64,000 nucleotides of DNA, taken from contig CANTEW010000005.1 of NCBI GenBank assembly GCA_947652925.1, positions 27,462-91,461 on the forward strand, read 5' to 3'. The DNA comes from an uncultured Lachnospiraceae bacterium (GTDB lineage Bacteria; Bacillota; Clostridia; Lachnospirales; Lachnospiraceae). Positions 40,020-60,637 of the stretch are shown one piece after another. Made by a program: the position numbers and the translations under genes. Under the pieces are notes generated by a model, which was not told where the DNA came from, did not search any database, and saw nothing but the letters and a program-made list of their open reading frames with translations. How positions within the stretch are numbered: the stretch's first letter is position 1; the number at the start of each line of letters is the position of its first letter.

Positions 40020-40219
40020 GACTTTTACTTTGAAAGTCCCGGCAAGCGGCAGGACGATGGGCGAACTTGTTTGCACACTCGGCCTGACATTTGACGGGCT
40101 AACCTGTATGAATGAGTAGGGCTGCAGCCCGGATCATGAATACAGGTGGCAGCTGTGGGAGTGCCGAAGGCACGGAGCAGCTGACTTTCATTCATGGTGA
40201 TGTCGCCGTCAGGCGACAT
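40020..40219 (+). ncRNA. Highly structured non-coding element (unknown RNA or repeat remnant)
   Basis: Four hairpins in 200 bases: GACTTT/AAAGTC (40020-40038); ACCTGTAT (40102-40109) with ATACAGGT (40140-40147), enclosing the palindrome GGGCTGCAGCCC (40119-40130); CAGCTG (40150-40155) with CAGCTG (40178-40183), enclosing GTGCC-GAA-GGCAC; and ATGTCGCC-GTCA-GGCGACAT (40200-40219), a perfect 8-bp stem with a tetraloop. The minus-strand reading frame here looks like non-protein. It could be a structured RNA or a dispersed repeat. The strand is a guess. Confidence 0.5.
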
Positions 40220-49417: not shown

Positions 49418-49443
49418 ACTCCTATACATAGACCAAAGAAAAA

Positions 49444-49476
49444 GATGCGGCAAAGTCATCACGACTTTACCGCATC
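49444..49476. terminator. Bidirectional terminator between MCP and MATE genes
   Basis: GATGCGG-C-AAAGTC, loop ATCAC, GACTTT-A-CCGCATC. A T-run follows on the plus strand and an A-run precedes it, which gives a T-run for the minus strand. Confidence 0.85.
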
Positions 49477-49512
49477 CTTTTTCTGATCTTCCATCTATCC
49501 TCTGTGCAGCAT

Positions 49513-50865
49513 TCAGGCACGCTCCAGACCACGCTCCCTTATGAGGAACATGACGGAAAAAGCAACCCCCGTGGCCACCCAGGAGGCGATATAGAGCCAT
49601 ACGATGCATTCCATACTCCTATGTCCGGGCAAGATGGTCAGGATGCCTGCGACCCGGAGCAGGCAGGTGCAGAACAGCGTGATGAACATAGGTTTTACCG
49701 TATCGCCCATACTGCAGCAGGCTCCGGAAAAGGCTTCCGCCAGAGCATAGAATACAAAGAACGGGGCCATCATCCTCATATAATGGACCGAGAGCGGTAC
49801 CACATCCTTCGCATCCTCCGCCGCGATAAACCAATGCCCCATGATCCTCGTTCCAAAGAACAGGACAGCGCTGATAATGGCTACACAGGCGGCCGACATC
49901 CCCGCTCCTGCCAGTGCGCCTTGTTTCACACGCCCCACTTTTTTCGCTCCCACATTCTGCGCCGTATAGGTGGTCAGCGCGGGGCTCATGGCATCCGCGA
50001 TCAGCCAGATCAGCATATCCAGCTTATCACAGATCCCCCAGGCCGCGATCTGGTCTGTACCCATACTGTTCACACTGGCCTGGACAATAGAATTGGCAAT
50101 GGGAAAGAGGACCGACTGGAGCGCCAGGGGAAATCCCGTCTTGATCATGGACATCATATGTTCTTTACAAAAATGCATATGCCAGATCTTCTTCTGTCCT
50201 CCCTCGCGTTCGATCCCAGCCAGCAGCCACATCGTATACACGGCACTGACGATCTGGGCGAAAACAGTCGCGGCGGCCGCCCCGCCGACGCCCATGCGGA
50301 ACACACCCACCAACAGCAAGTCGCCCGCTATATTAAGGGCCGAACAGAGGATCAGCACATATAAAGGCCGCATGGAGTCCCCCAGCGCCCGTAAGATACC
50401 GGACGCCATATTATACAGGACCATCGCCCATATCCCTCCAAAATAGACCCGGGTGTAGATGGCCGTCTGTGCGTATATCTCTTCCGGCACAGCCATGATA
50501 TCCAGAAGAAAAGGTGTCAGGAACACGCCGGCGACAGAACATACGATACCCAGGCCGACCGCCACTGTATAGGCCGTCCGTATGGAACAATGCAGGCTCT
50601 CCCTGTCTTTTGCGCCATAGTACCTGGATATCAGGATCGTCGCCCCCGCCGCCAGGCCGCTCATAAAATTCAGTGGAAATTTAAAGACCGTGTGTACACT
50701 GTCGATCGCGGCAAGGCCGCTCTTTCCATTGAAACGCCCCACGATGACCGCGTCTGCCGTTACATACAGCTGCTGTATCAGACTTCCCAAAATGATCGGC
50801 AGAACGAACAGGAGCAATACCAGAAAAACATTTCCTTTTGTAAGGTCCAGCGTTTTTTTCTCCAT
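49513..50865 (-). CDS. MATE-family efflux transporter
   Basis: A 450-residue membrane protein with about 12 helices. The N-terminal KGNVFLVLLLFVLPIILGSLIQQLY and the mid VGRFNGKSGLAA (MATE N-lobe) are typical. MATE proteins export cationic drugs or metabolites using Na+ or H+. It follows the P1B ATPase gene by only 29 bases on the same strand and ends at the bidirectional terminator, so it may be the last gene of the B12-riboswitch operon. Substrate unknown. Confidence 0.87.
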   Translation of the reverse strand: MEKKTLDLTKGNVFLVLLLFVLPIILGSLIQQLYVTADAVIVGRFNGKSGLAAIDSVHTVFKFPLNFMSGLAAGATILISRYYGAKDRESLHCSIRTAYTVAVGLGIVCSVAGVFLTPFLLDIMAVPEEIYAQTAIYTRVYFGGIWAMVLYNMASGILRALGDSMRPLYVLILCSALNIAGDLLLVGVFRMGVGGAAAATVFAQIVSAVYTMWLLAGIEREGGQKKIWHMHFCKEHMMSMIKTGFPLALQSVLFPIANSIVQASVNSMGTDQIAAWGICDKLDMLIWLIADAMSPALTTYTAQNVGAKKVGRVKQGALAGAGMSAACVAIISAVLFFGTRIMGHWFIAAEDAKDVVPLSVHYMRMMAPFFVFYALAEAFSGACCSMGDTVKPMFITLFCTCLLRVAGILTILPGHRSMECIVWLYIASWVATGVAFSVMFLIRERGLERA

Positions 50866-50894
50866 AGTTTCTTAAAAGACCTCCCACTTCCGGA

Positions 50895-53690
50895 CTATTT
50901 TCTATATAAGATGCGGATCGAATTCAGGAGACACAGCACCGATACGCCTGTATCCGCAAATACCGCTACCCACATATTTGCGAACCCGAATAATCCGGCG
51001 ACCATGACGATCACTTTGACTGCCAGAGCAAAATATACATTCTGCCAGGAGATCCTGGACGTAGCCCGGGCGATATCGATCGCCTGGGGGATCGCATCCA
51101 TCTCGGAAGTCATGAACACCACGTCCGCCGCCTCGATCGCCGCGTCTGCGCCGCTGCCCATAGCCGCGCCCACATCCGCCCCGGCAAGGACCGGTGCATC
51201 ATTGATACCGTCGCCTACGAACATCACGCTCCCATGTTTGGCGCGTATCTTCTCCAGCTCCTTGAATTTCTCTTCCGGGAGCAATTTTGCATGGACCTCA
51301 TCGATCCCCGCTTCCTCCGCGACTGCCCTCGCACTGTCTTCCGCGTCGCCTGTCAGCATGGCCGTGACGATCCCGTACTTCTTCGTCTTGGCGATCGCCG
51401 TCACCGCATCCGGTTTGATCGTATCCGCGATCACGATATGTCCTGCAAAACGCCCGTTCAGCGCAACAAGGACTTCCGTGCCAAATTGTTCTTTCTTATA
51501 GCCGGACAGATCCACTTTGTTCGCCTCCATCAGCTTCCTGTTCCCACAGAGGGCAACGCCTTTGCTGATCTCAGCCCGGATGCCATGGCCCGCGATCTCC
51601 TCCACTTTGGAGGGGCGTTCGATCTCAAGGCCGGCGTTCTTGGCCGCCTCCACGATACTGTTCCCGATGGGATGGGTGGACGACAGCTCACAGCTGGCGC
51701 TGAGCGACAGCAAGTCTTGTGATGTCATGCTCTCATCGGCACAGACACTGTTCTGCACGACGAAGTTACCTTTTGTGATCGTCCCGGTCTTATCCATGAC
51801 CACGGCTTTGATGTTCTTCAGGGATTCAATGGCCACGCCGCCCTTAAACAGGATATTCTTCTTGGAAGCCGCCCCGATCCCTGAGAAAAATGCCAGCGGT
51901 ACAGAGAGGACCAGCGCACAGGGACAGCTGATGACCAGGAAAGTCAGCGCCGTCAGCACAGAAGCCGTTCCCGACGTCCCATAGACGACCCCCACCGTCC
52001 CCGCATAGTCCGCATCTACAAAGAAATGCCAGCCAGGGATGATAAAGGGCAGCGCCACAGCTACTATCACGGCAAACAGCACCACAAACGGTGTGTAGAC
52101 CCGTGCAAAACGGGTGATGGATTTGTCGATGGCGGGCTTGCTCGCCGCCGCATTCTCCACAGAATCCAGGATACGCGTGACCATGGACTCTTCCAGGATC
52201 TTCTCCACACGGATCTTGATCTGTCCGGAGGTATTGACACAGCCGGAATTGACCAGATCACCCACGCCCGCCTTGACCGGGACAGGCTCCCCCGTGATCG
52301 CAGACGTATCCAGACGGGTCTCCCCCTCGATCACAACGCCGTCCAGCGGCACACGGTCGCCGGGACGGACCAGGAGGATATCTCCCACCACGGCTTCCTC
52401 TGCATCCATGACGCGCACCTCATCTCCCACCACCAGATTGACCACCTCCGGCCGGAGATCCACCGCGTCCATGATCTGGGAACGGCTCTGCTCCGTAGCC
52501 CGGTCTTCAAAATATTCACCAATGCGGTAAAACAGCATGACGCCCACCGCTTCCGGGAATTCACGGATGGCAAAAGCCCCCAGCGTAGCGATACACATGA
52601 GGAAATTCTCATCAAAGATCTGCCCTTTTTTGATATTCCTCCCGGCCGTCATGAGGACTTTCCCCCCGAGGATCAGGTAAGAGACGATGAACAGGGGCAG
52701 CAGCCGTATGTCCGACTCTTCCAGCCCGCCTATGTGTAACATGCCAAAACCGATCAGGAATAAGACGGCTCCGATCCCGATCCCGATCAGAGGGTTCTGT
52801 TCTTTTTCTTTCTCTTTCTTCTCGCTCTTTTTGACCTCTTCTTTAGGGACGACCGTGATGCCATCTTCCATAGCGTCGATCGCTTTTTGGATCTCTGGGA
52901 TCAGTACATCCGGCCGTCCCGCCGAGAGACGCATCTGCTTATTGGCATAAGTGACAGAGACATCATCCACGCCCTCCATCGTCTTGATCTTATGCTCGAT
53001 CTTCGCCGCGCAATTGGGGCAATCCAGCCCTTCCAGGACATAGACCTTCGTCTTGGAGACCGTCGTCGCCGCTTTCCTGTTCCTTGGGACCAGGGTGATG
53101 CCGTCCTCGATAGAATCCACCGTGGCCTGCATCTTCTCCATCAGACCGGCATGATCCTGGGCGGATACACGCAGCTGCTTCGTTGCATATGCCACAGAAG
53201 CGTATTCCACTTCCGGCATCTGGCGGATCTTCGCTTCCACTTTCGCCGCACAATTGGCGCAGTCCAGTCCTTCCAGGATGTAGACACGTTTCTCCATCTT
53301 CTCATCCGGCATCACGCAGTTGCATCTCGCCAGGGATTCCCCACACACATCGCAGTATTCCACATGGGGATTACACACTTCACAATCGCAATCGTCCGGA
53401 TGCCCCTGTGTATGATGATGTTCTATGACAAAATGTGTGTGGGAACGGGTGGCCTCATCCCTTGGGCCATGATCGTGCCCGCAGCCGCATCCATCCCCAT
53501 GGTCATGGTCGTGCCCATGGTCATGTCCGCAGTCGTCCCCATGCTCGTGGTCGTGTCCATGGTCATGCTCATGGCTGTGTCCGTGGCCTTGTTCATGCTC
53601 ATGCTCATGTACGTGTCCATCATGTTTGTTCTCATGTCTTTGGCCGCGGCTATGTTGTTTGCGGCCACGGCTTTTTTTATGATCTTTCAT
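50895..53690 (-). CDS. P1B-type heavy-metal ATPase with His/Cys-rich N-terminus (ZntA/CadA-like)
   Basis: 931 residues, against ~700-800 for usual family members. Residues 1-100 are extremely His-rich (HGHDHGHDHDHGDG-type runs), 101-125 are Cys-rich (CDCEVC, CDVCGE, CNC), and two heavy-metal-associated domains follow with CANC (144-147) and CPNC (224-227). Then come membrane helices, the SCPCAL metal site (589-591 are C-P-C) and the phosphorylation motif DKTGTIT (633-639). SCPC with two HMA domains points to the Zn/Cd/Pb class; other metals are possible. ATG with AAGGAGG, 20 bases after the lipoprotein gene: likely same operon. Confidence 0.92.
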   Translation of the reverse strand: MKDHKKSRGRKQHSRGQRHENKHDGHVHEHEHEQGHGHSHEHDHGHDHEHGDDCGHDHGHDHDHGDGCGCGHDHGPRDEATRSHTHFVIEHHHTQGHPDDCDCEVCNPHVEYCDVCGESLARCNCVMPDEKMEKRVYILEGLDCANCAAKVEAKIRQMPEVEYASVAYATKQLRVSAQDHAGLMEKMQATVDSIEDGITLVPRNRKAATTVSKTKVYVLEGLDCPNCAAKIEHKIKTMEGVDDVSVTYANKQMRLSAGRPDVLIPEIQKAIDAMEDGITVVPKEEVKKSEKKEKEKEQNPLIGIGIGAVLFLIGFGMLHIGGLEESDIRLLPLFIVSYLILGGKVLMTAGRNIKKGQIFDENFLMCIATLGAFAIREFPEAVGVMLFYRIGEYFEDRATEQSRSQIMDAVDLRPEVVNLVVGDEVRVMDAEEAVVGDILLVRPGDRVPLDGVVIEGETRLDTSAITGEPVPVKAGVGDLVNSGCVNTSGQIKIRVEKILEESMVTRILDSVENAAASKPAIDKSITRFARVYTPFVVLFAVIVAVALPFIIPGWHFFVDADYAGTVGVVYGTSGTASVLTALTFLVISCPCALVLSVPLAFFSGIGAASKKNILFKGGVAIESLKNIKAVVMDKTGTITKGNFVVQNSVCADESMTSQDLLSLSASCELSSTHPIGNSIVEAAKNAGLEIERPSKVEEIAGHGIRAEISKGVALCGNRKLMEANKVDLSGYKKEQFGTEVLVALNGRFAGHIVIADTIKPDAVTAIAKTKKYGIVTAMLTGDAEDSARAVAEEAGIDEVHAKLLPEEKFKELEKIRAKHGSVMFVGDGINDAPVLAGADVGAAMGSGADAAIEAADVVFMTSEMDAIPQAIDIARATSRISWQNVYFALAVKVIVMVAGLFGFANMWVAVFADTGVSVLCLLNSIRILYRK

Positions 53691-53710
53691 GATCGATCTT
53701 CCTCCTTTGT

Positions 53711-54898
53711 CTATTGTCCTCTCCTGGCCTGTGCATCCTTGCGCGTATAGGCTTCTGTCAGAGCTTTCAGCTTCTCAAAGCTGGCTTTCTCATCATATCC
53801 TTTCATCACAGAACACAGATTTTCATAATTATAAGCATTCACATAAATACCTGTGGCTAATGCATATTGATCGTCGTATTCTTTTCTATCTTTTGATATC
53901 CAGTATCCCTGGGTCATCTTAAATGCCCTGCCGTCTTCACGGAACTCTTCCCCGTACCCGGTCACAGCATTATACATGGCGGCAAAAGAAGGCCCGATCA
54001 TAGAACTGGATTTACCTGCCACATAACACAGCGTCCCGTCCGCAAACAGATCTTTGTTCGTCATGCTGTAACAGTCGATCACACCCTGTCTCACCCCTTC
54101 TTTTCTGAACACATCCACCATGCTGTACATGGAGAACATGGAAAGGGCAAAGTCGTACTCCGTACTCTCCAATTCTTCCACTGCCTTCTCTCCTACTTCT
54201 TCTCTTGTGGTATACCCTGGGAAAACGGTCAGAGTGCTGTCACCCAATGTCAATCTCACCACTTCCTCCGTCGCTGCCAGCTCTTCCACGTCCTCTCCAA
54301 GATCGCCGAATTTTTTTTCAAAGACCTCCAAAGCCCCCACAGAGCGCATCCGATGCATCTCATTGCCTATGGCCGCGCCGCCGGTGAACAGGATATAGGA
54401 GTCCCCTTCCATCTCGTTGATAAAATAGTCCGCCAGATCCGCACCGGCCTGGTGTTCGATCTCAAGTCCGGGTCCTACCACTCCTACAAAATAAGGATCG
54501 TCCGCTACTGCCTCATATGCCTCCTCTGTGACCGTTCCGGAAGCCAGCATATAGTATATGCCTTTTGACGCACAGAGATCCACCTCCGCCGCCAGATCAT
54601 ACGTGATGAAGGACATGATCCCTTCGACCCCTTCCGCGCAGGCCTCCTCCAAAAAATCCATCTCATCTTCCGCACTGCGGATGGCATAAGAATAACAGAA
54701 CTCCACCTCCGGAAAGCATTTTTTGATATAACCTGTCAGATAATCACGGAACGCGATCACTTCATCATCCGTCACATCATAGACGGCTACTCCGATCTTA
54801 TGTACCGCTTCGTCATCTACATCTTTTTTCCTGCTGGAACAGCTCACCACACCGAACACGAGCAGGACCGCCAGCAGGATAAAAACGAACCTTTTCAC
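53711..54898 (-). CDS. Lipoprotein with type-I periplasmic-binding-protein fold
   Basis: 395 residues. A lipoprotein signal with lipobox VVSC near residue 20 places it on the outer membrane face. The rest (KIGVAVYDVTDDEV ... GIMSFITYDLAAEVDLC ... GGAAIGNEMHRM ... LSMFSMYSMVDVF) fits a sugar- or BMP-type binding protein. The start is GTG 54898, with GGAGG six bases upstream; the GTGA overlaps the stop of the upstream ATPase gene. A second binding protein in a Nik/Dpp-type operon is unusual. Ligand unknown. Confidence 0.8.
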   Translation of the reverse strand: MKRFVFILLAVLLVFGVVSCSSRKKDVDDEAVHKIGVAVYDVTDDEVIAFRDYLTGYIKKCFPEVEFCYSYAIRSAEDEMDFLEEACAEGVEGIMSFITYDLAAEVDLCASKGIYYMLASGTVTEEAYEAVADDPYFVGVVGPGLEIEHQAGADLADYFINEMEGDSYILFTGGAAIGNEMHRMRSVGALEVFEKKFGDLGEDVEELAATEEVVRLTLGDSTLTVFPGYTTREEVGEKAVEELESTEYDFALSMFSMYSMVDVFRKEGVRQGVIDCYSMTNKDLFADGTLCYVAGKSSSMIGPSFAAMYNAVTGYGEEFREDGRAFKMTQGYWISKDRKEYDDQYALATGIYVNAYNYENLCSVMKGYDEKASFEKLKALTEAYTRKDAQARRGQ

Positions 54899-55872
54899 GC
54901 TTTTCCTCCTCTCTTTCCAAAGACATGACAAGACACCTCATGCCCCGGCTTTAGTTCTGTCAAGACAGGATGCTCCTGCCGGCATATGCCTATACAATGC
55001 CCACAGCGGTCCTGGAAAGGGCAGCCTTTTGGAACGTCCAGGGGACTAGGCGCTTCGCTCTCGATACTCTCGATCTTCTTAGAAAAATCCATATTGATAT
55101 CAAAGATAGCGCCCATCAGCGCTTTTGTGTACGGATGTACCGCATTCTTATCTGATCCCTCTGCCGGGATCACCTCCACGATATCCCCCAGGTACATGAC
55201 CGCGATCTGATGGGCGAAAGACTGGATCAGACCCAGGTCGTGGGCGATAAAACCGATGGATATATTTTTCTCTTTCTGCAGTTTTACCACCAGCTCTATG
55301 ATCGTCTTCTGCACAGAAACGTCCAGGGCGCAGGTGGCCTCATCCATGACCACGATCTCCGGTTCCAGCACGATGGCCCTGGCGATGGCGATCCTCTGGC
55401 GTTGGCCGCCGCTCATGTTATGGGGATAGCGGTCCGCGAACTCTGCCGGAAGGTCCACCAGCTCCAGATACTTTTTCGCCACTGCGTCCTTTTCGCTTTT
55501 TTTGATCCGCTTAAAATTCATCAGCGGCTCGCAGATGATATCCCGGATCTTCATCTTGGGGTTAAAAGAACCGGAAGGATCCTGGAATACCATCTGGATC
55601 TTCTGACGGTTCTGCCGGAGCGCTTCCCCCCTCATCTTCGTGATGTCGTTTCCATGAAAAAAGATCTCACCTTCTGTAGGCGTATCCAGTGAGACCAGAA
55701 AACGCATGAATGTACTCTTTCCACAGCCGGATTCTCCCACCAGACCCAGAGTTTTGCCCTTATACAGACGCAGGCTGACATCGTTGCACGCCACCAGCGT
55801 CCTGCCATTGGAAGCCGGGAACTTGCGTGTCACATGTCTCGCATCCAGGATCATGTCTTTCTCATCAAACAT
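54895..55872 (-). CDS. ABC transporter ATPase, Dpp/Opp/NikE-like
   Basis: 325 residues. Walker A GESGCGKST, signature MSGGQRQRIAIARA and Walker B VVMDEATCALD are present (the last reads DEAT, not DEPT). The C-terminal Cys block (GCPFQDRCGHCIGIC) is that of Opp/Dpp F-type ATPases. Start at ATG 55872 with GGAGGTG; it overlaps the previous gene by 8 bases. It pairs with the next ATPase to energise the two permeases. Confidence 0.9.
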   Translation of the reverse strand: MFDEKDMILDARHVTRKFPASNGRTLVACNDVSLRLYKGKTLGLVGESGCGKSTFMRFLVSLDTPTEGEIFFHGNDITKMRGEALRQNRQKIQMVFQDPSGSFNPKMKIRDIICEPLMNFKRIKKSEKDAVAKKYLELVDLPAEFADRYPHNMSGGQRQRIAIARAIVLEPEIVVMDEATCALDVSVQKTIIELVVKLQKEKNISIGFIAHDLGLIQSFAHQIAVMYLGDIVEVIPAEGSDKNAVHPYTKALMGAIFDINMDFSKKIESIESEAPSPLDVPKGCPFQDRCGHCIGICRQEHPVLTELKPGHEVSCHVFGKRGGKA

Positions 55873-56647
55873 AACGTTCACCTCCCAACGACGGTACTGC
55901 CTCCAACAGGTTCCTTGTATACTCGCTCTGAGGATGATGGAGGATCTTCTCACGGTCGCCCGCGTCCACGATCTCCCCGTCCTTCATGACAACGATATAG
56001 TCCGCCATGTAAGCCGCCACCCCCAGGTTATGGGTCACCACGATGATGCTTGTCTTATAGGTATCCCGCAGTTCCATCATCTGACGCACGATCTGCGCCT
56101 GTGTCGTCACGTCCAGCGCGCTGGTGGGTTCATCCGCCAGCAAGAGTTTCGGCTGGAAAGTCATAGCCATGGCGATCCCTACCCTCTGCCGCATACCGCC
56201 CGATAACTGGAAAGGGTAGCTTTTCATGATGTTGTCGCCGCTGGGCAGGCGCATGCGTTCCAGCATCTGGATCCCTTTATCCCAGGCGTCTTTTTTTGTC
56301 ATATCCTCATGGGTGCGGATATATTCCACAAACTGCCTGCCGATGATCCTAGTCTGGTTGGTCATCGCGCCGGAATCCTGGAAGATCATGGAGATATCCG
56401 TTCCTCTGAGCCGTCTCCACTCTTCCTTTGTATTGGACAATAGAGATCTTCCTTCAAACAGGATATCCCCCTTCGTCACTCTGCCTCCGCCGCCCAGGAG
56501 TCCCAGGACCGCCCGGATCACCGTCGTCTTCCCGCTGCCGCTCTCTCCCACGATGCTGCAGATCTTCCCCTGTCCGAGAGAGAGGTCAAAACCTTTGACC
56601 GTTGGCCGCCCTTTATAAGATATCGTAACATCTCTTAATCCCAACAT
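55865..56647 (-). CDS. ABC transporter ATPase, NikD-like short form
   Basis: 260 residues with Walker [10 protein letters not shown], signature [14 protein letters not shown] and Walker [12 protein letters not shown]. It is much shorter than typical DppD/OppD (~330) and lacks the C-terminal Cys extension, which is more like NikD of nickel importers (~254). That makes metal transport more likely but does not prove it. The start overlaps nothing and follows the permease gene by 15 bases. Confidence 0.9.
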
Positions 56648-56662
56648 GCTCCATCCCCTCCT

Positions 56663-57484
56663 TTACTCATCTCTGGGGTCCAGCACATCCCGCAGGCTGT
56701 CGCCGAACAGATTGAAGACTACCACTACGATAAAGATCGCAAGGCCGGGGAAGATCATCAGCCACGGCGCCGCCGCCATGTAAGCCCTTCCCTCATTGAG
56801 CATCAAACCCCATTCTGGTATGGGCGCCTGCGCCCCGAAACCCAGAAAAGACAGCCCTGCCAGCTCCAGCATCATGCTGCCGATATCCGTCGCCCCTGTG
56901 ATGATCAGTGTGGGCAGAGCATTGGGGAGCATATATCTCATCAGGATGTACGGCGTCTTAGACCCGGTGACCACAGCCGCCGCCACATAATCCCGGTGAC
57001 GTATCTTCAGCACCAGGCTCCGCGCCAGGCGCGCATATTTCGTCCAGCTCACCATGGAGATCGCAAGGACCGCATTCTGGATGCTGGCCCCCAGGATACC
57101 TGCGATCGCGATCGCAAGGACCATGCCCGGAAAGGATACCATCATATCTGAAAAACGCATGATCACCGCATCCACCACCCCGCCGAAGTACCCGGCCAGG
57201 ATGCCTAAGACCGTGCCCACGGCAAAGATGATCGTGACCACACTGAGCGCCGCCGTCAGGGACGTCCGCGTCCCGTAGATCACCCGCGCAAAAATATCCC
57301 TGCCCAGTTTATCTGTCCCAAACCAATGTTCGCCGCTGGGTCTCTGCAGGGCGTTTGCCAGCGCGCCTTCCGTCGGATCTTGGCCCCTTACCAAAAACGG
57401 TGCAAAGACCGCCACCAGCACCACCAGCAGGACTAAAAAGCAAAAAAATATAAAAGACCTGTTCTTCTCCACAAAATCTTTCAT
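56663..57484 (-). CDS. ABC transporter permease, DppC/NikC-like
   Basis: 273 residues with about six helices and the coupling block WTKYARLARSLVLKIRHRDYVAAAVVTG (EAA-type loop). The N-terminal cytoplasmic tail and first helix resemble OppC/NikC. The start is ATG 57484 with AGAGGTG ~9 bases upstream; a GTG at 57496 overlapping the previous stop is the alternative. It forms the pore with the partner permease. Confidence 0.9.
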   Translation of the reverse strand: MKDFVEKNRSFIFFCFLVLLVVLVAVFAPFLVRGQDPTEGALANALQRPSGEHWFGTDKLGRDIFARVIYGTRTSLTAALSVVTIIFAVGTVLGILAGYFGGVVDAVIMRFSDMMVSFPGMVLAIAIAGILGASIQNAVLAISMVSWTKYARLARSLVLKIRHRDYVAAAVVTGSKTPYILMRYMLPNALPTLIITGATDIGSMMLELAGLSFLGFGAQAPIPEWGLMLNEGRAYMAAAPWLMIFPGLAIFIVVVVFNLFGDSLRDVLDPRDE

Positions 57485-57492
57485 GGACAGTA

Positions 57493-58431
57493 TCACCTCT
57501 TCTCTCTCATTCTGGGATCTACAAAATTATAAGAAATATCCACCACCAGGTTGATCACCATATAGATCAGCGCGATCCACAGCACATATCCCTGGATCAG
57601 CGGATAATCATAAGATGTGATCGCCGACACCGCCAGGCTCCCCAGCCCCGGATAGGAGAAGATGACCTCCACCACCGCTGTACCGCCCAACAGGGATCCC
57701 ACAGAAAGCCCCAGCATGGTGATCAGCGGGAGCAGAGAATTGGGAAATACGTTCAGCCACAGGATCTTCCATTCTTTCACACCCCGCGCCCGGGCGCCTG
57801 TCACATAATCCTGGCTCAACTCTTCCAGCACCGCCGTGCGCACCTGTCGCGTATATTTCGCAGACATGGCAAAAGCCAGCGTCACCGCCGGGAGGATCAT
57901 ATTTTTGAAAGTGATGTCTGTAGAGACCACCTGGAACCATTTCAATTGAACACAGAAAAAAGAGATCAGCAAAAGGCCCACCCAGAAATTCGGCACAGAT
58001 ACGCCGAGAAAAGTAAATCCACGGACCAGGCTGTCGATCCATCTGTTCTTGTTCACCGCCGCCAGCATGCCAAAGGGTATGGAGACGATCAGCATCAAGA
58101 TCATCGAGAACAGCGCCAGCTTCATCGTGGGCCACAGTCTGGATCCCAGAAGATCCAGCACCGGCTTTTTCAGAGAATAAGAAGTACCGAAGTCACCCCT
58201 CAGACATCCCGTCAGCCAATCCCCGTACTGGACCAGGAACGGACGGTCAAGTCCCATCTCCGCCCGTGTCTGCTGCATGACTTCCTCGCTGGGCACGATA
58301 CCTGACGCCGCATACATGGTGCGCACCGGATCCCCCGGCGCCATATAAGTCAAAAGAAAGGTCAAAAAACTGATGCCCACCAGCACGATGACGATCTGAC
58401 CCAGCCTTTTTCCCAATTGTTTTATTGACAA
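57493..58431 (-). CDS. ABC transporter permease, DppB/NikB-like
   Basis: 312 residues, about six helices. GRLGQIVIVLVGISFLTFLL-type first helix, the YMAPGDPV loop and ELSQDYVTGARARGVKEWKI (EAA loop) are OppB/DppB/NikB features. Start at TTG 58431, eight bases after GGGGG; an upstream frame to 58530 overlaps the gene before. A hairpin precedes it at 58484-58510. Confidence 0.9.
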   Translation of the reverse strand: MSIKQLGKRLGQIVIVLVGISFLTFLLTYMAPGDPVRTMYAASGIVPSEEVMQQTRAEMGLDRPFLVQYGDWLTGCLRGDFGTSYSLKKPVLDLLGSRLWPTMKLALFSMILMLIVSIPFGMLAAVNKNRWIDSLVRGFTFLGVSVPNFWVGLLLISFFCVQLKWFQVVSTDITFKNMILPAVTLAFAMSAKYTRQVRTAVLEELSQDYVTGARARGVKEWKILWLNVFPNSLLPLITMLGLSVGSLLGGTAVVEVIFSYPGLGSLAVSAITSYDYPLIQGYVLWIALIYMVINLVVDISYNFVDPRMREKR

Positions 58432-58483
58432 ATCTTTCTTCCCCCTTTCATATACCACCATTGAGGTGATCGCCAGATCTGGG

Positions 58484-58510
58484 AGCCGGGAAGAGATCCC
58501 CCTCCCGGCT
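58484..58510 (-). other. Hairpin between binding-protein and permease genes
   Basis: AGCCGGGA (58484-58491) pairs with TCCCGGCT (58503-58510). No T-tract on the minus strand. Such stems often stabilise the upstream message and raise binding-protein output over permease. Confidence 0.55.
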
Positions 58511-58526
58511 GCGGATATCTGTAGCA

Positions 58527-60242
58527 TCATTTCGGTGCGATCTCATTGGAGAGCCAGTAATAATCCACCGTATGGATATCGGCGCCCGATACTTTCGACG
58601 CGTTGGAAATGAATGTACTATTGTAATATCCATGTACCAATACTGCGCAGTCGTCGATCAGGATCTGTTCCATCTTGATGACCAGATCGGCGCGCTCATC
58701 CAGATCCGTGGAGGCCATATACTGATCGTAGAGTTTATCGTATTCATCGTTTTCATACCAGCAGTAATTCGTTCCCTGGCTGTTCACATAGAACTCACTC
58801 CCCTTGTCACCGCCGTACCAGTTTTTCAGAAATGCACTGGGCTCGCCGGTCCCCACTGTGGTCCAGTTGGAGTCGCACAGGTCATATTCTCCCGCCTGCA
58901 TCATATTCCACTCTGTATCAGAGTCCGTGTTGTTCACATTCACATCAATACCGATCTCAGACAGGGATATCTGGATCGCCTCCGCAAAATCACTCAGGCA
59001 TCTGTTGGTGTATGTGATGTACTGCAATGTGATATTCTCGCCGTCAAGCTCGCGGAATCCGTCCCCATCGCTGTCTTTGATGCCCGCGTCATCCAGGAGC
59101 TTCTTTGCGCCTTCCACATCATACTCAAAGTCATTTTTTAAGGACTCTTGATCATAGGAAAGTGTAGACGGAAGGACTGCCGGACCGTATGTATACATCC
59201 CGCCCACGGTCACATCACAGAGGGTCTGGCCGTCCACAGCTTTGAACACAGCCTGGCGCAGCGCTTCGTTTTTTCCCAGGATACCGTTGAAATTCACATA
59301 GGCAAAGCCAGTCCGCATACCAGGGGTCTTGGATACATAATAAGCGTCGTCCCCTGACAGTTCTTCCAGATCGCTGGCCGTTGTGATATTCTCTGTCAGA
59401 TCGATATCCCCTGTCTTTAAGGCGCTGGCTTTCGTGCTGTCGTCTTCGATAAAGATAACGGAAATGCTGTCATAGGGCACTTCCCCGTTCCAGTAATGTT
59501 CATTCTTCACCAGTTCTGAACATTTCGTCGTCTCGTCCATGGAAGAGATCACATAAGGACCTGTGCCGATCACTGAAGTAGCGTCTGCTGTATAATCGTG
59601 CTCCGCGTCTGTGGTATCCCCCTCCACATCCATGATCGTATAGAATGGAAAGCAGAGGATAGATGTGATATCTGCATAAGCTTCAGATGTGACGATGGTC
59701 ACCGTGTTGGCGTCTGCGTCTGCGGTGATGGATTCCGTCTGCAGATACGTCTCCGGTGTGGAGCTTTTCTTATCCGTAGCACAGACCGTATAGAGACGGT
59801 TCAGTGAATCCGCCACTGCCTGCGCATTGCAGTCGTTACCGTTTGAAAACTGCACCCCGTCGCGGATATGGAATGTCCAGGTCTTCTTGTCCTCTGATAC
59901 ATCATATTTATCACAGAGATCATAGTCCACAGTCAGATCGTCCTTGAACTTGAACAGACCCTCCATAACTCCATGGCGCATACCGTCCCAGGCTGCATTC
60001 TGATACTCAGCCGGATCATATGATGTAGAATACACATAGCATCCGAAGTTCAGATGTTTGCCGTCTCCGTCTTCTGTCTTGGCGCTGCTGCTCTTGCCCG
60101 CATCATCCCTTGCGTCCGCCGACCCACCCGAGCCGCCGCATCCTGTCAGCATCGCAGCTGCCAGCGTCCCGGCCAGACTGAGAGCCAGCGCCTTTCTCAA
60201 CAAACCCTTCCCCGATCTCTTCTCTCCTTTTGTTTTCCTCAT
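58527..60242 (-). CDS. Extracellular solute-binding protein, family 5 (Nik/Dpp/Opp-like)
   Basis: 571 residues. A lipoprotein signal (LAAAMLTGCGG, Cys at ~35) anchors it to the membrane. The family-5 blocks DGMRHGVMEGLFKF, WTFHIRDGVQFSNGND, IGTGPYVISS, NEALRQAVFKAVDG and AKKLLDDAGIKD are in order. The family binds peptides, nickel chelates or other small molecules. It is the first gene after the cobalamin riboswitch, so its ligand is probably tied to corrinoid or cobalt/nickel supply (inferred). ATG with GGTGAGGAG. Confidence 0.9.
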   Translation of the reverse strand: MRKTKGEKRSGKGLLRKALALSLAGTLAAAMLTGCGGSGGSADARDDAGKSSSAKTEDGDGKHLNFGCYVYSTSYDPAEYQNAAWDGMRHGVMEGLFKFKDDLTVDYDLCDKYDVSEDKKTWTFHIRDGVQFSNGNDCNAQAVADSLNRLYTVCATDKKSSTPETYLQTESITADADANTVTIVTSEAYADITSILCFPFYTIMDVEGDTTDAEHDYTADATSVIGTGPYVISSMDETTKCSELVKNEHYWNGEVPYDSISVIFIEDDSTKASALKTGDIDLTENITTASDLEELSGDDAYYVSKTPGMRTGFAYVNFNGILGKNEALRQAVFKAVDGQTLCDVTVGGMYTYGPAVLPSTLSYDQESLKNDFEYDVEGAKKLLDDAGIKDSDGDGFRELDGENITLQYITYTNRCLSDFAEAIQISLSEIGIDVNVNNTDSDTEWNMMQAGEYDLCDSNWTTVGTGEPSAFLKNWYGGDKGSEFYVNSQGTNYCWYENDEYDKLYDQYMASTDLDERADLVIKMEQILIDDCAVLVHGYYNSTFISNASKVSGADIHTVDYYWLSNEIAPK

Positions 60243-60303
60243 ATCTCCTCACCTTTCCAGCATTTTGGTTTCTTAGATCGAGCCGGTGATCCCATAGGAT
60301 AAG

Positions 60304-60331
60304 AAAAACGCCCGTATCACAGATACGGACG
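60304..60331 (-). terminator. Terminator of the riboswitch leader
   Basis: Ten-bp stem (60309-60318 with 60322-60331, one U-G pair on RNA) with a TGT loop, then TTTTTCTT on the minus strand. It lies between the aptamer and the first gene, as expected for transcription attenuation. Confidence 0.85.
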
Positions 60332-60394
60332 CCAAAAAAACAATATAAACAAAAGCCTGCTCCTTATCTTCCGTAAGAATCATACTCAATGACG

Positions 60395-60561
60395 AACTGC
60401 AAGCAGGTCTCCTGACTTAAGATCGACACTTTGAGACACCTTCCCAGACTTACTTACACAAAGCCCAGTGGTATTGACCGTCCCAAAGCTCCCTCATACA
60501 GTGACGGGATCGTACCGGATTCGCACCGGTTTCCCTTTTGATCCTTGCGGAACTTGCAGTT
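60395..60561 (-). promoter_or_regulatory. Cobalamin (B12) riboswitch
   Basis: On the minus strand: P1 AACTGCAAG/CTTGCAGTT (60553-60561 with 60395-60403, 9 bp, perfect); the core GGGAAACCGGTGCGAATCC and CCCGTCACTGTA; ACCACTG; TGGGAAGGTG; and the B12-box GTCAGGAGACCTGC ending at 60403. Together with the promoter upstream and terminator downstream it should turn off the operon when adenosylcobalamin or a related corrinoid is plentiful. Read with the terminator it is a transcriptional switch. Confidence 0.93.
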
Positions 60562-60608
60562 GGCTGGTTCCCAAACCAACAAATGCTATTTAATTTTTTC
60601 TGTCTGAT

Positions 60609-60637
60609 ATTATAAAACAAAAAACATGAAATGTCCA
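60609..60637 (-). promoter_or_regulatory. Promoter of the riboswitch operon
   Basis: On the minus strand TGGACA (60632-60637), 17-base spacer, TATAAT (60609-60614), directly upstream of the aptamer. Confidence 0.8.

Follow-up and report, generated by a model that had tools for sequence, protein, structure and literature searches.

In a 64,000-nucleotide stretch (the window) of the genome of an uncultured Lachnospiraceae bacterium (GCA_947652925.1, contig CANTEW010000005.1, positions 27,462 to 91,461), eight minus-strand genes follow a leader that carries a cobalamin riboswitch. Seven of the eight have a Pfam or NCBIfam assignment and the sixth has none. They encode a five-gene Nik/Dpp-type ABC importer (a family 5 substrate-binding protein, SBP; permeases B and C; ATPases D and F), a second binding lipoprotein (LIP), a heavy-metal ATPase of the P1B class and a MATE family exporter (Table 1). 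With slightly better than even confidence, we read this operon as a B12-repressed unit for the acquisition of chelated cobalt, in which the P1B-2 type pump would purge wrong metals and the MATE protein would export the spent chelator. Such a unit would be a candidate cobalt route for B12-making gut bacteria that have neither CbiMNQO nor NiCoT. Its surprising part is the metal-export ATPase behind a B12 riboswitch, a position not expected for metal pumps.

A first-pass annotation had already proposed a single B12-sensing unit of eight tightly packed genes on one strand, and this proposal is borne out by the leader and the gene junctions. The aptamer scores well above the Rfam gathering cut-off, a terminator lies between it and the first gene, and another terminator closes the operon; the riboswitch is presumably an OFF switch. 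The promoter is assigned by its position, because promoter-like sites are no commoner in the region (8 between 48500 and 61500 on both strands, against a shuffle mean of 11.5) than in shuffled sequence; terminator-like sites number 24 there, against a shuffle mean of 10.0. With starts chosen for a Shine-Dalgarno sequence, the start of F at 55872 overlaps the stop of D at 55865, the start of LIP at 54898 overlaps the stop of F at 54895, LIP and P1B are 20 nt apart with an AGGAGG in the gap, and P1B and MATE are 29 nt apart. Permease B is given from the first possible start of its open reading frame (ORF), its true start being unsure since no start with a Shine-Dalgarno sequence was found. Within the operon, the minus-strand promoter-like sites (59929, 57924 and 50705) match only 9 of 12 consensus positions and the terminator-like sites have weaker stems or tails, that at the F/LIP junction (54947-54929) having 8 pairs, 3 of them G-C. 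As these internal sites are weak, the stretch between the ABC genes and the P1B gene shows no clear break of the kind that the annotation had named as telling against it, and the genes are predicted to form one transcription unit. Its gene assignments were likewise upheld, by family matches for the importer, the metal ATPase and the MATE protein and by predicted fold for LIP.

As to the ligand, the annotation had left a corrinoid and a metal chelate side by side. The sequence comparisons speak for the second: a metal, most likely cobalt, appears the better ligand class, because the folds closest to the SBP include nickel-chelate binders and because the carriers of the system are nearly all B12 makers. 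The solved folds closest to the SBP include NikA of Staphylococcus aureus and a Nik-type SBP of Bacillus halodurans, at 23-25% identity, and the ligands of the solved relatives are small chelates and peptides. Arg89, Arg310 and Arg414 are invariant in 35 of 35 sequences, the last two aligning with arginines of S. aureus NikA. The chelate-contact residues of Escherichia coli NikA include Arg137, according to the available text of PMC2667541; position 137 (in the mutant chain 2noo) aligns with Phe200 of the window SBP, at an identity so low that the alignment is unsure. Both permeases exceed the cut-offs of their "nickel" Opp2B and Opp2C families. The short NikD-like ATPase, which the annotation had taken as support for a metal, turned out to be weak evidence, as it scores equally as NikD (233.5 bits) and as OppD (233.6 bits), below both cut-offs.

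The second line of evidence comes from the genomes of 50 of the 63 related loci described below. The B12 synthesis gene cbiF (TIGR01465) was found in 48 of these 50 carriers, against 226 of 394 sampled family genomes (48/50 versus 218/385 once nine sampled carriers are removed; Fisher test, p = 2.5e-9, a value that is too small because related genomes are counted as independent). It is also present in all 22 genomes that hold the SBP family, a set overlapping partly with the 50 carriers. The importer thus combines the two features by which B12-regulated cobalt transporters are predicted, control by a B12 riboswitch and presence in B12 makers. The CbiM family (PF01891, which also covers NikM) occurs in 17 of the 50 carriers and NiCoT in none, its positive controls being matched, which leaves 31 carriers with cbiF and neither of these two transporter types, the only ones searched for.

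If the importer's substrate were a peptide or a chelate of nickel or zinc, B12 control of the operon would have to reflect some other need. The nickel-chelate binders and peptide binders among the solved relatives are compatible with such a ligand; the SBP falls short of the two nickel SBP cut-offs (TIGR02294, 173.4 against 393; NF045468, 212.6 against 600), and the uniform presence of cbiF in the SBP-family genomes makes it an unlikely explanation. We give similarly little credence to the importer taking a corrinoid (cobinamide or B12) that AstE-like enzymes would trim in the manner of CbiZ. Cobalamin riboswitches often control B12 uptake, and at locus L100 an AstE-like gene is indeed the last of what looks like a riboswitch operon that also encodes a binding protein, a FecCD permease and an ATPase. 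However, a corrinoid importer should serve non-makers too, and the near restriction to B12 makers is unexpected for salvage; L084 has, directly upstream, a separate riboswitch-led unit of binding protein, FecCD and ATPase, as expected of a corrinoid importer; the metal pumps, joined at some loci by genes for an HMA chaperone and an ArsR-like protein, fit a metal; and small chelates and peptides are what the solved SBP relatives bind.

Some observations weigh against the cobalt reading itself. The window's own genome has cbiMNQO under a riboswitch of its own. Two of the 50 carriers lack cbiF, as does one of the nine family genomes in the sample that have a close LIP; draft genomes can miss genes. 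Replacement of CbiM by the new system was also considered and did not hold up, the frequency of CbiM among the carriers (17/50) not differing significantly from that in other cbiF-positive genomes (100/218, p = 0.16, likewise too small a value because relatedness is disregarded).

Looking for the same gene arrangement in relatives, as the annotation had advised, we scanned a collection of species genomes (84,980 species) with two peptide patterns drawn from the LIP alignment; the scan is not exhaustive. The importer and LIP recur in 63 related loci; cultured strains with relatives of the system include Blautia schinkii, Blautia luti and Hominisplanchenecus faecis. Where 6.5 kb or more of upstream sequence was available (45 loci), a riboswitch was recognised by pattern in 41, and Rfam confirmed a cobalamin riboswitch in all 16 of the 63 loci that were submitted. 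Chained with LIP (on its strand, no gap being longer than 220 bases) are a P1B gene at 21 of the 63 loci, a gene for an AstE/AspA-like hydrolase, a deacylase family absent from the window operon, at 21, and MATE at 17; these counts are lower bounds because many contigs end early. The fullest operons, L083 and L084, run riboswitch, SBP, B, C, D, F, LIP, AstE, MATE, ArsR-like gene and P1B, with two AstE genes in L083 (the labels ArsR and HMA chaperone, like RbsA and YesM, were given from reading the sequences, with no family search behind them). In clusters of the unassigned neighbouring ORFs, a LysR regulator came up at 7 loci and other families at 3 or 4. Around distant LIP homologues the picture differs: among control loci of at least 12 kb (n = 28), P1B and AstE were found at none, MATE at 1 and the riboswitch pattern at none, against 26, 20, 17 and 39, respectively, among the 45 test loci of that size.

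This enrichment bears on whether P1B, MATE and LIP are mere passengers that share the transcript of five ABC genes working alone. P1B and MATE are indeed gained and lost between close relatives, the labels for P1B build needing 20 changes on the LIP tree where the minimum is 2 (three states, of which "none" includes short contigs). The SBP family itself (at least 660 bits, next best 483, the best 4 candidates per genome being scored) is present in 22 of 358 family genomes, and 14 of the 22 lack LIP at the locus. At those 14 loci the riboswitch pattern was seen 9 times, MATE 8, AstE 4 and P1B 2, so that the riboswitch and the five ABC genes make up the core and MATE is the steadiest partner there. 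We nevertheless find a passenger role improbable, given the strong enrichment over control loci, the two P1B architectures, the two or more MATE score groups and the occurrence of LIP under a riboswitch of its own, with another riboswitch between it and the SBP operon, in L099 (308-2314) and L127 (9660-11663).

The motif CPC together with K and DxG marks P1B-2 pumps for Zn, Cd and Pb, and SPC marks the cobalt pumps of type P1B-4. The window protein has the full P1B-2 set, CPC589, K892 and D913 (in DTG), with 31 histidines in its first 200 residues and HMA in two stretches, and its best match among solved sequences is the zinc-transporting ATPase 4umv. Seven of 40 sequences were too short or contained X and were left out of the typing; among the 33 typed, the window's included, CPC is present in all 33 and K with DxG in 32, the lone exception being the broken frame of L126, and SPC was found in none. 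The pumps come in two builds, one of 818-1094 aa and rich in histidine, the other of 621-665 aa and usually beside a separate HMA-like gene. Ahead of the P1B genes at the 16 loci, no riboswitch for NiCo or another metal scored above the gathering cut-off.

One might suppose that the same cobalt importer is paired with a pump for cobalt itself, a safety valve while the importer is on. Its chaining with LIP would suit this, as would the five loci (L080, L106, L107, L109 and L126) where no recognised gene stands between the riboswitch and P1B, though L106, L107 and L109 are near copies and the riboswitch of L107 was recognised by pattern only; some CadA-type pumps also move Co. The consistent Zn/Cd/Pb motifs, against no SPC at all, make such a valve doubtful. 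According to a review, cobalt efflux is generally controlled by the cobalt ion itself (available text of PMC7689651); a P1B gene behind a B12 switch fits purging at the time of import better than detoxification. The annotation had called import and metal export in one B12 unit unusual; this agrees with the print that we consulted, but in this family the combination recurs.

We thus picture the cobalt-acquisition unit as follows. When adenosylcobalamin is scarce, the leader would be read through and all eight genes expressed. The family 5 lipoprotein would capture cobalt held by a small organic chelator, and the complex would enter through the BCDF transporter, LIP perhaps assisting in ligand capture. 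The AstE/AspA-like hydrolase of the relatives, Zn-dependent and at times His-tailed, may open the chelate inside the cell, and the released cobalt would enter corrin synthesis. The P1B-2 pump, produced together with the importer, would expel wrong metals of the Zn/Cd type, since chelators of this kind bind not only cobalt but also zinc and further divalent metals, and the MATE protein would send out the spent chelator or its fragments. If this is true, the cell secures the metal selectivity of uptake by expressing an exporter alongside, and a cobalt chelator may await isolation.

In AstE-like proteins of at least 290 aa, HxxE and a later H are kept in 27 of 27 according to the alignment, which was used instead of a narrower AstE zinc-ligand pattern that matched 4 of 27; His-rich C-terminal tails occur on the hydrolases of L081, L084, L091, L096, L131 and L038. 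Same-strand MATE proteins of at least 300 aa fall into two groups by their score against the window MATE, 602-643 and 145-231 bits. It is tempting to go further, to a B12-repressed cycle in which the cell makes a chelator itself and secretes it through MATE. The two lipoproteins would then pick it up again loaded with cobalt, the importer would take it inside for AstE to open, the cobalt would enter corrin synthesis, and the P1B-2 pump, under the same B12 switch, would purge the Zn or Cd brought along. We rate this as a rather unlikely possibility; no chelator-synthesis gene was recognised near the loci by eye or among the ORF clusters. If true, it would amount to a metallophore system specialised for cobalt, with B12 as the end product that governs it.

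LIP is predicted to have the type I, sugar-type binding-protein fold. The window protein has no Pfam match, and 6 of 40 relatives match Peripla_BP_4 weakly. Among 295 genomes sampled across the order, 11 match LIP at 1e-40; of six LIP neighbourhoods from this sample, one (L156) is the riboswitch cassette, whereas the other five are ABC loci of the sugar type that lack a riboswitch, four of them outside the family or distant within it.

Within the leader, TTCTTACGG and a short inverted repeat after it (window 60361-60380) lie about 20 nt past the B12 box. Among 47 leaders, 44 have a similar element (at most 2 mismatches) downstream of the aptamer; a T tract is preceded by a hairpin at least as stable as -8 kcal/mol in 31 of 47. 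The window element can form 6 bp with the 5' arm of the terminator, and is thus a possible antiterminator; counting the window, pairing of 6-8 bp is found in L072, L074, L076, L078 and L093 as well. As a general mechanism this was rejected: in 26 leaders the longest helix averages 4.73 against 4.21 with shuffled arms, values too close for a general claim, and reaches 5 or more in only 9 of the 26.

Table 1. Features of the operon and its leader (window coordinates).
Feature	Position	Strand	Evidence or remark
Promoter-like site TGGACA-17-TATAAT	60609..60637	-	11/12 consensus positions; consensus only
Cobalamin riboswitch aptamer (RF00174)	60385..60572	-	107.4 bits (gathering cut-off 31.5), E 6.5e-26, model 1-189 complete
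TTCTTACGG leader element	60371..60379	-	23 nt past B12 box; outside Rfam match
Leader terminator	60307..60333	-	12-pair stem + U tract
SBP, family 5 substrate-binding lipoprotein, NikA-type fold	58527..60242	-	
Permease B (Opp2B type)	57493..58530	-	NF045470, 399.3 bits (cut-off 350)
Permease C (Opp2C type)	56663..57496	-	NF045474, 333.3 bits (cut-off 300)
ABC ATPase D (NikD/OppD-like)	55865..56647	-	PF00005, 94.1 bits; nikD below cut-off 318.7
ABC ATPase F (DppF/OppF-like)	54895..55872	-	PF00005 + oligo_HPY; start with Shine-Dalgarno sequence
LIP, second binding lipoprotein, predicted type I (sugar-binding) fold	53711..54898	-	
P1B, His-rich P1B-2 type heavy-metal ATPase, two HMA stretches	50895..53690	-	TIGR01525, 543.4 (cut-off 346.25)
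MATE family exporter	49513..50865	-	PF01554, 186 (cut-off 24.9); TIGR00797, 204.2 (cut-off 147.4)
Operon terminator	49439..49481	-	20-pair stem + U tract

Several other loci were noted in passing. In the window's own genome, a second family 5 SBP set without a riboswitch (L157, 6597-12507, contig C1) comprises a LysR gene, a fusion of an AstE-like hydrolase and a methyltransferase-like part, an SBP and two ABC ATPases; no adjoining permease genes were found, and the set might share permeases with another importer. The third riboswitch of this genome (L070, 7064-10685, contig C12) precedes a gene for a small Cys-rich protein (PF04071), just downstream of a copper-type-looking heavy-metal ATPase gene and a small HMA-like gene. 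Elsewhere, a second cobalamin riboswitch in L100 (11313-18474, minus strand) heads a gene for a CbiK cobalt chelatase, apparently exported (signal-like N-terminus by eye); next come genes for a short protein that also looks exported, for a Peripla_BP_2 protein, FecCD and an ATPase, and for an AstE-like protein. At L084 (520-4360) the order is riboswitch pattern, Peripla_BP_2, FecCD, ATPase, then a further riboswitch pattern with the Nik-type operon. A Clostridiales-1 sRNA (101 bits) lies at 40031-40190 of the window.

Among known systems, the closest precedent is NikABCDE of Clostridium tetani and Desulfitobacterium hafniense, found behind a B12 riboswitch, predicted for cobalt and separated from nickel-specific systems (PMC2667541, citing Rodionov 2006); a survey of the cobalamin regulon likewise counts cobalt transporters as members (PMC3766115), both as far as the available texts go. 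The likeness is that of a B12 riboswitch before a Nik-type importer; the available text of PMC2667541 mentions no P1B, AstE, MATE or type I lipoprotein, and the gene content of those operons was not checked. B12-riboswitch NikABCDE systems predicted for cobalt have been published before, and the wider cassette was not found in print: the literature search, which left most subscription papers outside, turned up no description of pump, hydrolase, MATE and lipoprotein together. From S. aureus NikA and the B. halodurans protein the window SBP differs in its low identity, its scores below the NikA cut-offs and its B12 control. The staphylopine system Cnt resembles the operon in having an Opp-type chelate importer adjoining an exporter; here, however, the SBP is no CntA equivalog (114.3 against a cut-off of 800), no opine-synthesis genes were seen in the window operon and the exporter is a MATE protein. 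With CbiMNQO under cobalamin riboswitches the operon would share B12-controlled cobalt uptake, and the two co-occur in the window's genome, but CbiMNQO is of the ECF type, takes the ion and is without binding lipoproteins, pump and MATE. The pump, finally, shares CPC, K, DxG and HMA domains with ZntA and CadA, and differs from them in its long His-rich N-terminus and in standing behind a B12 riboswitch in place of their usual metal repressor.
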